A stretch of 64,000 nucleotides of DNA from Calditrichota bacterium (GTDB taxonomy: Bacteria > Zhuqueibacterota > Zhuqueibacteria > Zhuqueibacterales > Geothermadaptataceae), in the NCBI GenBank assembly GCA_008501765.1, contig QQUE01000020.1, forward strand, positions 62,001 to 126,000. The letters are read 5' to 3'. Numbering within the stretch: position 1 is the stretch's first letter; each line of letters starts with the position of its first letter. The translations under genes were made by a program, and so were the position numbers. Positions 15,866 through 20,720 of this stretch are shown in pieces. The notes under the pieces are model-generated. The model was not told where the DNA came from, ran no database searches, and was given only the letters and a program-made list of their open reading frames with translations.

Positions 15866-17125
15866 ATGAAAAAAATAAAATTATCCACCAGTGCCACTCG
15901 CAAAATTATTCTTAATGCGCAACTTCTCAGCGGCCAAAACAATCTGCCAGCCGGCAAAGCAGGGGTCGCAGAAATCATCGATAAACTGGGCTACATTCAA
16001 ATCGATACAATCTCGGTGATCAATCGTGCCCACCACCACAGCCTGTGGGTGCGTCGGCCAGATTATGATGAGAAAATGCTGCACGATTTGCAAGCCAAAG
16101 ACCGCCGTGTTTTCGAATACTGGGGGCATGCCATGGCGTATTTGCCGATGCGCGATTATCGTTTTTTTCTGCCGAAAATGAAGAATTTTGAAAATCCCAG
16201 CGGCAACTGGGCCAGGGACAGGTTGGATAAATACGGCAAGCTGATGCCATCCGTATTAAAACGAATCCGCGAAGAAGGACCACTCAGCGCGAAAGATTTC
16301 GAAGCGCCGAAAGGCCGGAAAGGTGGTACCTGGTGGGACTGGAAACCGGCGAAAATGGCGCTGGAACTTCTTTTCTGGCAGGGAAAATTGATGATCACTG
16401 AACGCCGTAAATTCCAGAAATACTATGATCTGCGTGAACGCGTGCTGCCGGATAAAATCGATACCAGCTTGCCTGATGAAAAAGAAATCGGGCGGTTTTT
16501 GGTGCGGCGCGCTTTGTCAGCTCTCGGCGTGGCAAACGAGCGCGAAATTCTCAACTTTATGCAACCCGGAACCGCGCGCGACAGCGACATGCAGGTCGCT
16601 GGAAAATCCGTATTGCACAATTCTTTGAACGAATTGATTGAAGCGCAAGAAGTTACACCAATTGAGATTGAAGGGCAATCTGCACAGAATTATTTTGCTG
16701 CAACCAGATATCTGGAGAAATCAACTACGGAAAATACTGGCCCTGCAAACATTCATTTCCTCTCACCCTTTGATAATTTAATCATTCAGCGGGATCGGAC
16801 AAAAAGACTTTTCGGTTTCGATTATACTTTAGAATGCTATGTGCCAGCACCAAAACGAAAATACGGCTATTTCGTCCTGCCGGTGCTTTGGGGTGAAAAC
16901 TTCGTCGCTCGCTTTGATGCCAAAGCCGATCGCAAATTGAAAAAGCTGCTCATTCGCAACCTGTTTTTTGAGCCCGGTTTCGAGCGTTTCGATTCGTTTT
17001 TGCCGCGATTCGCAAAAAAGATGGGAGAATTCGCGCACTTTAATGACTGTGAGGGTATTGTCGTCGAAGAGGTGCAGCCGAGAAAGATGCAAAGTAAATT
17101 CCGGGATGTGCTGCAAAAAAAATGA
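15866..17125 (+). CDS. YcaQ-like winged-helix DNA glycosylase
   Basis: A 419-residue protein of the COG3214 / YcaQ (HTH_42) family, whose characterised members are DNA glycosylases that unhook crosslinked or alkylated bases. The family core is evident: KLGYIQIDTISVINRAHHHS with the conserved QxD and RxHH region, then WVRRPDYDEKMLHDL and FEYWGHAMAYLPM. The late segment FLSPFDNLIIQRDRTKRLFG is also typical. Residues 27-33 (LPAGKAG) look like an in-frame insertion of a short palindromic DNA repeat near the N-terminus. CAGGGA precedes the ATG. It is the fourth gene of the plus-strand run. Confidence 0.85.
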   Translation: MKKIKLSTSATRKIILNAQLLSGQNNLPAGKAGVAEIIDKLGYIQIDTISVINRAHHHSLWVRRPDYDEKMLHDLQAKDRRVFEYWGHAMAYLPMRDYRFFLPKMKNFENPSGNWARDRLDKYGKLMPSVLKRIREEGPLSAKDFEAPKGRKGGTWWDWKPAKMALELLFWQGKLMITERRKFQKYYDLRERVLPDKIDTSLPDEKEIGRFLVRRALSALGVANEREILNFMQPGTARDSDMQVAGKSVLHNSLNELIEAQEVTPIEIEGQSAQNYFAATRYLEKSTTENTGPANIHFLSPFDNLIIQRDRTKRLFGFDYTLECYVPAPKRKYGYFVLPVLWGENFVARFDAKADRKLKKLLIRNLFFEPGFERFDSFLPRFAKKMGEFAHFNDCEGIVVEEVQPRKMQSKFRDVLQKK

Positions 17126-17224
17126 AGTAAAACAGACTCTTAATCCTACGCGTTCTCGTAATCGGTTTCTGTAGCGACGAGAAGGATTACGATTACGAGT
17201 ACGAAAAAAAATTGGGGAGTATGA

Positions 17225-17635
17225 ATGCGGCCAAAAACGCATATAAAAATTTTCGCCATCGCGACGCTGGTATGGGCTGTGTTTGTGGTTGCCGGATTGC
17301 CGGATTACTATCTGCAGCATCCCGCGACCACCATGGTTTTCTTTGATATCTTTCTCATCATTCCATTCTCGGCAATCATTTATCATGTTTTCATACCCAT
17401 AAAACCGCAAAGGCGGATGAAAATTTCACTGTGGTATGCGTTTTATTTTACTGTGCCTTTCTTCCTCTACGACTGGATTTTTTGCGGCCTCTACCTGGGC
17501 CATGGATTCGATTTCCTGACCGTCTACTGGTTTTTGACAGTGTATTATTTCATTCCGTGGGTATTGTTTCCGTTGATTGCTTATGGGTTAAATCATAAAA
17601 ATGAGAACCGGACAAATAAACATAAAAGCGAATAA
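17225..17635 (+). CDS. Small four-helix membrane protein
   Basis: A 136-residue integral membrane protein with about four helices (residues ~8-26, 38-57, 68-88 and 102-124). It has many aromatic residues (VYWFLTVYYFIPWVLFPLIA) and a charged C-terminal tail. I do not recognise the family. GGGGAG stands six bases before the ATG. The 100-bp gap upstream holds a degenerate run of TTACGATTACGAGTACG-type repeats and a partial inverted TCTCGTAATCG copy. Confidence 0.65.
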   Translation: MRPKTHIKIFAIATLVWAVFVVAGLPDYYLQHPATTMVFFDIFLIIPFSAIIYHVFIPIKPQRRMKISLWYAFYFTVPFFLYDWIFCGLYLGHGFDFLTVYWFLTVYYFIPWVLFPLIAYGLNHKNENRTNKHKSE

Positions 17636-17815
17636 TTATTTGATGTCGACAGTGGGCGTGGGGTGATACAAGACTTGCATAGCAACCCTGTTTTTGTTAG
17701 ATATTACTTGAAATAATTCAATGTTTTTTCATAACAATTCATAGTTACAGACAATAGATTTCATCCTTGACTGTCAGCGAAAAAATATTCAACATCATAA
17801 AATAAGGGATCAAAA

Positions 17816-18955
17816 ATGGATCAATCACTAGTTAAAACAATAACGAGAATTGAAACAATTATTGATAAGTTGTTCCTCGATCCAAACAACCCAAGGTTTG
17901 TCAGTCCTGAGTGGGAATATATATCAGAAGACAATATTACGAGGACATCTATTCAGGACAACATAACTGGTAAACTAATCAGTGGGTTTGGGATAGAAAA
18001 ATTAGCGTCCAATATAAAAATAAATGGCTTTCTGAAGATAGATCGAGTGGTTGTGAAAAAAATTAATGGAACGGAAGATCAATATGTTGTATTGGAAGGT
18101 AATAGAAGAATTTGTGCAGCCAAAATGGTATATGAATTTTCGAAATCAAACTCTGAGTTACCAGACGATGTTATTGAATCTGTTACTAATATCGAATGCT
18201 TAGAATATATTGGTACTGACGCTAAGGCGTCGTGGATTTTTCAAGGTTTGCGACACATATCTGGGATTACGGATTGGCCTCCATTTAACAAAGCAAAGTT
18301 ATTAGTTGAGCAGATGGAAAGTGATGACTTGACTCTTACACAAGTAGGAGAACGTTTTGGCATCACAGCATACGCTGCGGGCCAATGGATGAGAGGGTTT
18401 AGAGCATTTCAACAAGCATCTGAAGATTCCGACTTTATACATGAACTTGATATAAAATCTTATCCATACTTCCAAGAAGTCTTTGGTAGAAGTTCCTCCG
18501 GAGTACGTGAATGGCTTGAATGGGATGAAAATGAAAGAATGTTTAAAAACGTTCTTAATTTGGATGAATTTATTAGCTGGTTATATCCCAGAGAAGATGA
18601 AGAAAGCGATGCATTTGGAAGTTGGGATAAAAGACATCTTAAAGTTCGTGATGATCTCAGAACTCTTTCATACCTGATGAAAGAGTCGCCAAAACATTTT
18701 GAAGAATTCAGGCGCACAAAAAATTTAGAAAACTGCTATGCACAAGCACTGGCGGTGAAACAAGACGAGAGAGCAGTTGATCACACAGAAAAAACGTTGG
18801 ACTTGCTGTCAGGTTGCACCAATGCAGTTGATAATTTACCTGCAAGGGCATTACGCGACGCAACTGTAAAACAAAAAATAGTAGATAAATGTAAAGATCT
18901 TTTGGTCTCCATCAAAGACATTTTGCCGGAAGCTTTTGACAATGGGCAGGATTAA
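17816..18955 (+). CDS. ParB-like DNA-binding protein of a two-gene nuclease cassette
   Basis: A 379-residue soluble protein. Residues ~10-130 form a ParB/Srx-like domain. LFLDPNNPRF (19-28) is the opening strand motif. EGNRRICAAK (94-103) corresponds to the GERR/GEHR nucleotide-binding box of ParB, with Asn replacing Glu. Residues ~172-195 (LTLTQVGERFGITAYAAGQW) look like the helix-turn-helix that follows the ParB domain in KorB/ParB proteins. The last ~180 residues are not recognised. AGGGATC precedes the ATG. The gene overlaps an Mrr-like nuclease by 14 bp, and both are more AT-rich than their neighbours, which suggests horizontal acquisition. There is no ParA partner, so plasmid partition is unlikely. 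Targeting or licensing of the nuclease is my inference. Confidence 0.7.
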   Translation: MDQSLVKTITRIETIIDKLFLDPNNPRFVSPEWEYISEDNITRTSIQDNITGKLISGFGIEKLASNIKINGFLKIDRVVVKKINGTEDQYVVLEGNRRICAAKMVYEFSKSNSELPDDVIESVTNIECLEYIGTDAKASWIFQGLRHISGITDWPPFNKAKLLVEQMESDDLTLTQVGERFGITAYAAGQWMRGFRAFQQASEDSDFIHELDIKSYPYFQEVFGRSSSGVREWLEWDENERMFKNVLNLDEFISWLYPREDEESDAFGSWDKRHLKVRDDLRTLSYLMKESPKHFEEFRRTKNLENCYAQALAVKQDERAVDHTEKTLDLLSGCTNAVDNLPARALRDATVKQKIVDKCKDLLVSIKDILPEAFDNGQD

Positions 18956-19778
18956 TTATTGGCAAATAATTAAAAGCCATGCATACGCAAATGCCAAAAT
19001 AAATCAAAGTGCAAAACTTGAATCTTATGCATATGAACTTTTAGTTAATCATGGCACAATAGAGCCTTTAGACGCAGAAAGATACTGCACAAAAAATTTA
19101 AAAATAATTGGTAATAAATTTGCCCAACTAATAGATGATGATAAAAAAAGAGGTGTAACCCCTCCTTTAATACTTGGTAGTGGATATATTTGTCTATGGC
19201 ACCCTCAAAATACCAGGCAAGAAGCTGTATGGACATATCGTAATTCGTTACTGAGAAAGTTAGCCGAGATTGATGATGATTCATTTGAAGCTTTATGTTG
19301 CTATGCCATAGAGTCCATTGGAGGAATATCATTTAAAACAAAATCAAAAAGTGACGGTGGTGTTGATGGATATGCTCTATTATCTAACCAAATAGACAAC
19401 CATATTTTTGGACAAAAAAAAATTAACCTAAAGATCGTCGGCCAATTCAAAAACTATAACCACAAAGAAGTTGTAACTAAATTTGAATCATTCATTCAGA
19501 CAATAAATAACGTTAGGTATATGTCAGAGCGTATAAGAAGTGAAATGCCTTCTTTCTTCTCTTCTGCCAAAGGACCAATAGTTGGTTGGTATGTTTGTAA
19601 AAGTGGCTTCCAGGTTCAAGTTTATGACCAAGCAAAATGGCATGGAATTATCATCTCAGATTTGATAGACATAGTCGAACTTCTATGCAATATTGTTGTG
19701 TACCCATTTGGCGATAGAAAAACTAAATTATTATTGAACGTCTTTTCATCATTGAAAGCCATACTTAATAATTGCTGA
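18942..19778 (+). CDS. Mrr-like PD-(D/E)XK restriction endonuclease
   Basis: A 278-residue protein counted from the ATG at 18942; the frame also has a TTG at 18936. GGAAG lies upstream of both. Residues ~110-200 fit the Mrr catalytic domain: DSFEALCCYAIESIGG with Glu116, then SDGGVDGYALL with the metal-binding Asp142, and GQFKNY with the Gln168-x-Lys170 pair that replaces ExK in many Mrr enzymes. The N-terminal ~105 residues may be a winged-helix target-recognition domain, but I cannot name them. The start lies inside the ParB-like gene, so the pair is translationally coupled. No methyltransferase is encoded nearby. It could therefore be a modification-dependent nuclease or be controlled by the ParB-like partner. 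Confidence 0.7.
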   Translation: MGRINYWQIIKSHAYANAKINQSAKLESYAYELLVNHGTIEPLDAERYCTKNLKIIGNKFAQLIDDDKKRGVTPPLILGSGYICLWHPQNTRQEAVWTYRNSLLRKLAEIDDDSFEALCCYAIESIGGISFKTKSKSDGGVDGYALLSNQIDNHIFGQKKINLKIVGQFKNYNHKEVVTKFESFIQTINNVRYMSERIRSEMPSFFSSAKGPIVGWYVCKSGFQVQVYDQAKWHGIIISDLIDIVELLCNIVVYPFGDRKTKLLLNVFSSLKAILNNC

Positions 19779-19871
19779 ACCGTTGCACTCATCAGGCGGC
19801 ATGAGGTGCGGCGGCCCTAGTATGGTAAGCCAATGATGATCCCTGGCGTCTTGCACAATTTATATATTTCA

Positions 19872-20720
19872 CTATACACCTACCGTCCCTTCCGGATCAA
19901 TCCCGTCTTTCCGCAATAAATCATCCGCTCCGTCGATTAAATTATCTATTTCAGGCAACAATTGTTCCTCCATCCTGGCGGTTTTTTGCAGCACGCGCTC
20001 GATTTGTTTTGCCATGTGCGGTGGTACTTTTTCACAGTGCTTTTCAATGAATGACAGAATCTTTTTTTCCCCGGGATTGAGCACACGGTTGACGGCAAAT
20101 ATGACTTCAAAGTAGCTCGCCAGCAGGCCGGCCACACGGTGGTTAATACTGATCAAATCGTTGCGCTCGATGGCTTTTTTGATCTGCACATAATAGGCGG
20201 GAATCGCCTGACGCAGTACAGGATGGTTTTTCGCGATGATGGCGTTGCGCAAATTATCGGGGTAGGGGATATTGCATTTTTGCTGCAGCCGGGCAAACCA
20301 GCTGTCACGATCGAAGAGAATTTTGGCATTGCGGATCGTGTGCCAAAAACAGGTTGTGTAGCCGACTGAAGCTTCATTGCGAATCACAACACGGTCGATT
20401 TGCTCTTCGATCCAATTTGGTTGCCAAAACATGACATCCAGTTCTATTCCTGTTTTCTGGTCAAACCACGCATCGCCAACATCCCAAAAGGAGAGATTCA
20501 TATTACTGTGGCTCGCCCCTCTGCTGGCAACTATTTTTTCCCGCTCGGGCAGGGGGATTTCCCCATTGACAAAAACATAAAGATCGATATCCGAAAGTCT
20601 GTCGGTGGCGCCCGTCATTTGCGATCCGCCCAGTGCGATTGCCTCAACTTGCTTGAGTTTGGAGTATTTGTCCGCCAGAAATTCTGCTAATTCCGCATAT
20701 TGGGATTGATTTTTTTCCAT
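19872..20720 (-). CDS. Nucleotidyltransferase-fold protein (DUF4037-like)
   Basis: A 282-residue cytoplasmic protein. The N-terminal half has the minimal nucleotidyltransferase motif: GGSQ at 31-34 followed by LSDIDLYVF (SDID at 43-46), giving two metal-binding Asp. A third acidic position is likely in ELDVMFW. A helical C-terminal half (residues 130-282) resembles the substrate domain of aminoglycoside-type or DUF4037 nucleotidyltransferases. The substrate is unknown. AGGACAAAAT precedes the ATG. It converges with the nuclease cassette across a 93-bp spacer. Confidence 0.7.
   Translation of the reverse strand: MEKNQSQYAELAEFLADKYSKLKQVEAIALGGSQMTGATDRLSDIDLYVFVNGEIPLPEREKIVASRGASHSNMNLSFWDVGDAWFDQKTGIELDVMFWQPNWIEEQIDRVVIRNEASVGYTTCFWHTIRNAKILFDRDSWFARLQQKCNIPYPDNLRNAIIAKNHPVLRQAIPAYYVQIKKAIERNDLISINHRVAGLLASYFEVIFAVNRVLNPGEKKILSFIEKHCEKVPPHMAKQIERVLQKTARMEEQLLPEIDNLIDGADDLLRKDGIDPEGTVGV

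Follow-up and report, generated by a model that had tools for sequence, protein, structure and literature searches.

A mobile ParB-like and Mrr-like gene pair as a candidate two-component defence cassette

Introduction

ParB proteins are CTP-switched DNA clamps that act in chromosome segregation. What, then, would a ParB-like protein do when its gene overlaps that of a putative nuclease? This question is posed by two genes, here called A and B, in a 64,000-nucleotide stretch of DNA from a Calditrichota bacterium (contig QQUE01000020.1; hereafter the window). A preliminary description had pictured them, from the letters and open reading frames, as a ParB-like/Mrr-like nuclease cassette and a possible new defence or DNA-processing system. 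Here we follow the pair through profile searches, predicted structures and comparison of genomes.

Gene pair and locus

Gene A spans positions 17816..18955 of the plus strand and encodes 379 amino acids; gene B, on the same strand (18942..19778), encodes 278. As the start of B we preferred the ATG at 18942 to the TTG at 18936, where the mechanical ORF begins, since the residue numbers given earlier for its active site (E116, D142, Q168, K170) then match exactly. Both genes lie where they had been described, with a 14-bp overlap on the plus strand (18942..18955) that suggests translational coupling; in homologues, too, the two genes overlap or adjoin, usually by 4 bp or 10 bp. Equally correct was the remark that the pair is more AT-rich than its surroundings: its GC content is 0.356 against a window mean of ~0.426 (sd 0.023), and only 0.4% of the window's 1963-bp stretches reach so low a value. 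Promoter and terminator predictions were not commoner than in shuffled sequence.

Immediately around the pair lie an AlkZ-like glycosylase gene upstream, a 136-aa ORF (17225..17635, plus strand), a nucleotidyltransferase (DUF4037) gene after B and a gene for an FMN-binding protein; as had been stated, no methyltransferase, ParA or transposase was found among them. A defence-island setting for the window pair was considered and rejected, with matches to PADLOC in 0/9 neighbour genes.

The congeneric species G002 has the same gene order, with the AlkZ-like and nucleotidyltransferase genes ~53 bp apart and neither A, B nor the 136-aa ORF present. The extra segment of the window (~17120..19890; boundaries approximate) is without a direct or inverted terminal repeat, and no target duplication was seen. 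The 136-aa ORF inside it looks membrane-like by eye and has no Pfam or PADLOC match; it is not among the neighbour genes listed for other AB pairs and is therefore probably outside the system.

Predicted folds of the two proteins

Protein A is highly diverged from ParB. As a single sequence it remained below the cut-off for Pfam ParB_N (14.0 bits, E 0.055; gathering score 26.3), and a profile built from 37 A proteins matched PadC and Noc. Foldseek aligned its AlphaFold (AF2) model (mean pLDDT 88.9) with KorB, Noc and ParB over ~250 columns (best E ~8e-6). Judged by this model, A has the ParB/Noc/KorB fold, with an N-domain plus a helix-turn-helix (HTH; residues ~174–204), as its motifs had led one to expect. 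TM-scores normalised by query reached only 0.2–0.34; A bears an extra, alpha-helical C-terminal half, and the angle between its modelled domains is likely different from that of its ParB relatives. The motifs singled out at first, LDPNNPR (21–27) and EGNRR (94–98), are present and nearly invariant across 37 homologues (DP-N-R at 22–27, V-x-EGNRR at 92–98; GNRR in 37/37), and GNRR aligns with the GERR/GFRR phosphate motif of Noc/PadC. The ENxQR motif of ParB, judged by eye, is apparently replaced in A by G-x-R-H, followed by W154 and A160; at motif III, comparison of the profile with the true ParB of locus L023 gave a weak match only.

For B, the single sequence scored 17.4 bits against Pfam Mrr_cat, under the cut-off of 21 that the related B of locus L014 passes with 53.9 bits. 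A profile from 36 B proteins matched MspJI (1.9e-6), and Foldseek paired the AF2 model (mean pLDDT 89.7) with MspJI (E 9e-7) and AspBHI (E 5.5e-4), both modification-dependent endonucleases. The catalytic half of B, which follows a helical N-terminal region of ~100 aa, is in this model an MspJI/AspBHI (Mrr-type PD-(D/E)XK) fold, in line with the first assignment of B as Mrr-like. The proposed catalytic residues held up as well: 14/14 close relatives have E116, G140, D142, G167, Q168 and K170 unchanged, and at least 90% of 36 B proteins keep E116, D142 and K170. PADLOC returned a weak PDC-S02 match for B and nothing else, and neither A nor B showed a recognisable SRA-like domain or any other that reads modifications.

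Distribution and mobility of the pair

A single-sequence search of genome contigs with A gave no match, and P0002 as a lone query had no plasmid or viral match; relatives were found by profile. Searching 84,980 species genomes in this way yielded 430 relatives, of which the best 80 of the 430 loci were analysed, with 80 more from viral contigs. Among these best 80 of 430 loci, A proteins with 39–53% identity occurred in 14 genomes, near full-length in 13 and broken in one (L028); viral contigs carry further near full-length copies. Such a spread is far from chance. The A tree places the window in a 16-member clade (SH-aLRT 100) made up of the window, 13 genomes and two viral contigs; phyla with the pair include Pseudomonadota, Desulfobacterota, Bacillota, Acidobacteriota, Chloroflexota, Kapabacteria and KSB1. 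Among the sampled kin of the window genome, the window species alone has it.

That homologues would stay adjacent in unrelated genomes was borne out throughout the clade: in 15/15 members with downstream sequence (window included) B begins directly behind A, with a spacing of −20 to +9 bp, while the contig of the remaining locus, L097, stops at A. In one locus, B is split between two frames by a frameshift (L022:1546-2456), and a decayed copy outside this count has a broken A and lacks B (L028:7953-9026). We also looked for B without A. With a profile of B (A5), 398 proteobacterial genomes around G102 gave no match but the already paired seed, and so did 398 clostridial genomes around G105; in viral contigs the profile found only two already known pairs and none unpaired.

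Both genes are under purifying selection: dN/dS was 0.05–0.11 for A and B alike in three pairs of close loci, with A the more conserved of the two. The distance matrices of A and B correlate (r = 0.91; 0/5000 permutations as high), a value that shows co-transmission rather than contact, since linked inheritance alone gives such a correlation. A and B are a real unit that has moved together between distant bacteria.

The neighbours of this unit vary from one genome to the next, with few exceptions; by gene names assigned on inspection of the protein sequences, the pair lies behind pnp/rpsO, behind rpsB/tsf or next to ftsK. Three Chloroflexota share one position inside an ABC-transporter operon, and two of them show strong purifying selection. 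Mobile surroundings recur: a CI/S24-type repressor gene is next upstream of the pair in L018, recombinases flank it on both sides in L099, L097 is a viral contig, and in a Clostridium prophage a related pair (L047/L100) has the tail tube gene on one side and the tail chaperone gene on the other. By gain or loss relative to a sister species and by its presence on mobile elements, the pair is horizontally mobile. The expectation that homologues fall in defence islands fared less evenly, as the close clade was not found in classical islands and relatives do occur in prophages, between recombinases and in a known phage defence hotspot (see below).

The wider family of A

Beyond the close clade, we compared 156 distinct A proteins, ~141 of which have one of three downstream partners. 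Forty are followed by an Mrr-type B; 92 by a divergent nuclease with the residues D-x3-D, QC and W-x2-K, to which B shows weak homology at the DGGxD core (hhalign 55%, E 1e-4); and in nine, A is fused to AAA_21 (~700 aa in all) and followed by a DUF3226/TOPRIM-like gene. A further class resembles PD-Lambda-5, a long A (460–580 aa) preceding a D12 methyltransferase.

The partner classes differ in their methyltransferases. Counting D12 and C5 enzymes within 4 kb, at loci that extend at least 2.5 kb to either side, we found one at 5/33 Mrr-type loci vs 55/63 divergent-nuclease loci (Fisher p 3e-12, uncorrected for kinship; the methyltransferase label requires 12 changes on the A tree). A D12 or C5 methyltransferase adjoins A in 78/92 of all loci with the divergent nuclease, and one lies within 4 kb in just 1/16 members of the window clade, namely L097 on its phage contig. 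The Mrr-type relatives that have one are L014, L032, L035, L040 and L060. Of the genomes with a close-clade pair, reached through their loci, 11/13 encode at least one C5 methyltransferase; none was found in the window genome. Compared by sequence, these proteins fall into one larger ParB-like family with exchangeable partners; within it, the window clade has a nuclease as its only partner and hardly ever a methyltransferase.

Several members have arrangements of their own. Two P2-like coliphages (L003:96-3266; L002:4974-8010) carry an unnamed trio—a ParB-like protein, a divergent PD-(D/E)XK-like nuclease and a C5 methyltransferase—between the portal and replication genes, a site known as the P2 defence hotspot (PMC9519451). 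ParB-like proteins fused to AAA_21 (~700–740 aa) and followed by a DUF3226/TOPRIM-like gene were seen in L044:7971-10942, L049, L052, L053, L056-L058, L197 and L199, and account for PDC-M38A. Long ParB-like proteins (460–510 aa) with a D12 adenine methyltransferase directly after them are found in L206-L208 and L210. The Ti plasmid locus L007:4989-10711 of an Agrobacterium has a relative of A that follows a DEAD/DEAH helicase gene and converges with dndBCDE, possibly a phosphorothioate-linked variant. In L014:12252-16103, downstream of A and an Mrr-type B come a D12 methyltransferase and a wHTH protein, judged HNH-like by eye; by its gene content this locus is an intermediate between the methyltransferase-free pair and the RM-like forms. 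The Anaerolineae genome G109 has both a methyltransferase-free AB pair and an operon of C5 methyltransferase, A and divergent nuclease (L193:464-3736 and L027). Outside the D12/C5 count, ORFs that contain an xPPY motif lie upstream in L033 and L036.

Comparison with named systems

Both folds are already known, and the AB pair is, provisionally, without a name in the sources searched: neither PADLOC-DB nor the literature covered, mainly openly accessible journal papers, lists it under a name, and no paper there described a ParB-like/Mrr pairing as a defence system. The impression that the pair is unnamed stands to this extent; it does not extend to the A half, which is known as the N-terminal part of PDC-M38A and as kin of PD-Lambda-5_A.

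PADLOC matched A to PDC-M38A (2e-49) over the N-terminal half of that model. PDC-M38, which no paper that we found mentions, likewise is a two-gene operon, and A is a homologue of PDC-M38A over the first 360 residues of the latter. However, PDC-M38A has ~715 aa and its relatives carry a C-terminal AAA_21 ATPase and then a DUF3226/TOPRIM-like gene, whereas A matches profile positions 7–362 of 715 only and the window has an Mrr-type nuclease instead of an ATPase. PD-Lambda-5 (Vassallo et al. 2022, PMC9519451), described there as an RM+Abi-like system, is akin through its PD-Lambda-5_A models, which match the first 100–180 residues of A (1.6e-12); its relatives combine a long A (460–580 aa) with a D12 adenine methyltransferase, neither of which the window has, the next genes being B and the nucleotidyltransferase. 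The P2-hotspot trio (orf98-orf96-mth of Wphi, unnamed) combines, as the window does, a homologue of A with a PD-(D/E)XK-like nuclease whose gene comes next and overlaps or abuts it, but that nuclease has D-x3-D...QC...W-x2-K rather than GxD...QxK, and a methyltransferase adjoins. In the P2/P4 hotspot paper, the main text names no ParB system.

B shares with Mrr, MspJI and AspBHI the predicted catalytic fold and the E...D...QxK residues; their recognition domains, by contrast, were not recognised in B, which is tied to a ParB-like partner gene. A, in turn, resembles ParB, Noc and KorB in its N-domain plus HTH fold and, by alignment, in a putative GxRR phosphate-binding motif, and differs from them in that no ParA was found nearby and in having a ParB_N match of only E 0.055 and the added helical half. 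Alike in logic are GmrSD, BrxU, SspE and DndI, in which a ParB/Srx-superfamily domain is coupled to a nuclease and gates it (PMC11662687); in GmrSD, SspE and DndI, a ParB-superfamily NTPase (DUF262) gates an HNH nuclease (PMC11662687). By analogy, the mechanism of the pair may resemble that of GmrSD, SspE and DndI, although neither A nor B has a DUF262 or DUF1524/HNH Pfam match and the window nuclease is PD-(D/E)XK rather than HNH and is encoded by a separate gene. CMoRE (PMC12923530), also considered, is a GIY-YIG enzyme unrelated to the pair.

Discussion

What is the pair for? The folds, the catalytic residues, the A–B linkage, purifying selection, the empty site, the mobile context and the relatives in the P2 hotspot together favour a role in defence: on sequence and structural models, the pair is probably a compact, mobile two-component cassette of restriction type, in which A would recognise DNA and license B, and B would cut. 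A would be a DNA-binding protein of ParB/Noc fold, probably a nucleotide-gated dimer or clamp, that recognises some feature of incoming DNA; its HTH and ParB-like domain would make the contact with DNA, perhaps together with a nucleotide, and A would position or activate B. Thus licensed or recruited, B as an Mrr/MspJI-type nuclease would cut the incoming DNA. In methyltransferase-bearing relatives, self DNA would be spared by methylation; in the methyltransferase-free clade of the window, self and non-self would be told apart otherwise, most likely through a required DNA modification or a phage-specific DNA state. All of these steps are inferred, from nucleotide binding, DNA loading and contact between A and B to cleavage, and so are phage defence itself and what sets it off.

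Foremost among the alternatives, which we consider possible if somewhat doubtful, is a type IV-like, modification-dependent restriction, with either A or the N-terminal part of B as the sensor of modified phage bases. If B cuts only modified phage DNA, no methyltransferase is needed, and their scarcity beside Mrr-type pairs as opposed to the sister branch agrees with this, as does the window genome with its lack of a C5 enzyme. The Mrr_cat match and the modification dependence of MspJI and AspBHI, the closest solved relatives of B, point the same way; yet kinship of fold does not fix the substrate, no modification-reading domain was recognised in either protein, and the C5 methyltransferases in 11 of the 13 pair-bearing genomes exclude a general 5mC trigger in those hosts. 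Generic 5mC is weakened as a trigger by the same count, and hypermodified bases, sequence context and a replication-linked signal remain as candidates.

The order of the genes—an overlapping two-gene operon with the putative regulator first—would also suit an abortive-infection or toxin-antitoxin-like pair, in which A keeps B silent until a phage product or state frees it to damage host DNA. The broken copies L022 and L028 and the RM+Abi-like description of PD-Lambda-5 (PMC9519451) fit such a scheme; against it, A is more conserved than B and its ParB motifs are invariant, which is more than a mere inhibitor needs, and we regard it as unlikely. A notch less probable still is restriction-modification with the protecting methyltransferase encoded elsewhere in the genome. 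It would accord with the methyltransferases that adjoin most divergent-nuclease relatives and some Mrr-type ones, but such an enzyme is near a single member of the window clade, on a phage contig, and a cassette crossing phyla minus its methyltransferase would kill its new hosts.

A housekeeping role in DNA repair, recombination or partition, which the ParB fold and the AlkZ-like gene upstream might bring to mind, is very improbable given the sporadic spread over phyla and the confinement to the window species among sampled kin; the congener keeps the AlkZ-like gene without the pair, and neighbours elsewhere are unrelated. Least probable of all is a selfish element (a homing nuclease or transposon-like unit): clean presence or absence at one site and the many contexts of the two-gene unit would suit it, but the missing terminal repeats, which count against a transposon or homing reading, the missing target duplication, the restriction-type nuclease fold and the operon position shared by three Chloroflexota, two under strong purifying selection, all oppose it.

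If the defence-cassette reading is extended to the whole family, one arrives at a more tentative proposal, namely a so far unrecognised superfamily of ParB-gated defence systems that combine a nucleotide-gated ParB-like DNA sensor with interchangeable effectors, be it an Mrr nuclease, a divergent nuclease plus methyltransferase, AAA-TOPRIM or a methyltransferase. The pair in the window would represent the smallest version of it, free of a methyltransferase, in which ParB-type loading on DNA chooses the target of the nuclease. Should this hold, a small, portable two-gene nuclease system would be added to the bacterial immune repertoire, and PDC-M38, PD-Lambda-5 and the unnamed P2-phage trio would be linked by a common ParB-like sensor. 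Licensing of a nuclease by a clamp would be a novel means of selecting what is cut, and the pair would pose the question of how a restriction-type system without a methyltransferase spares its own chromosome.
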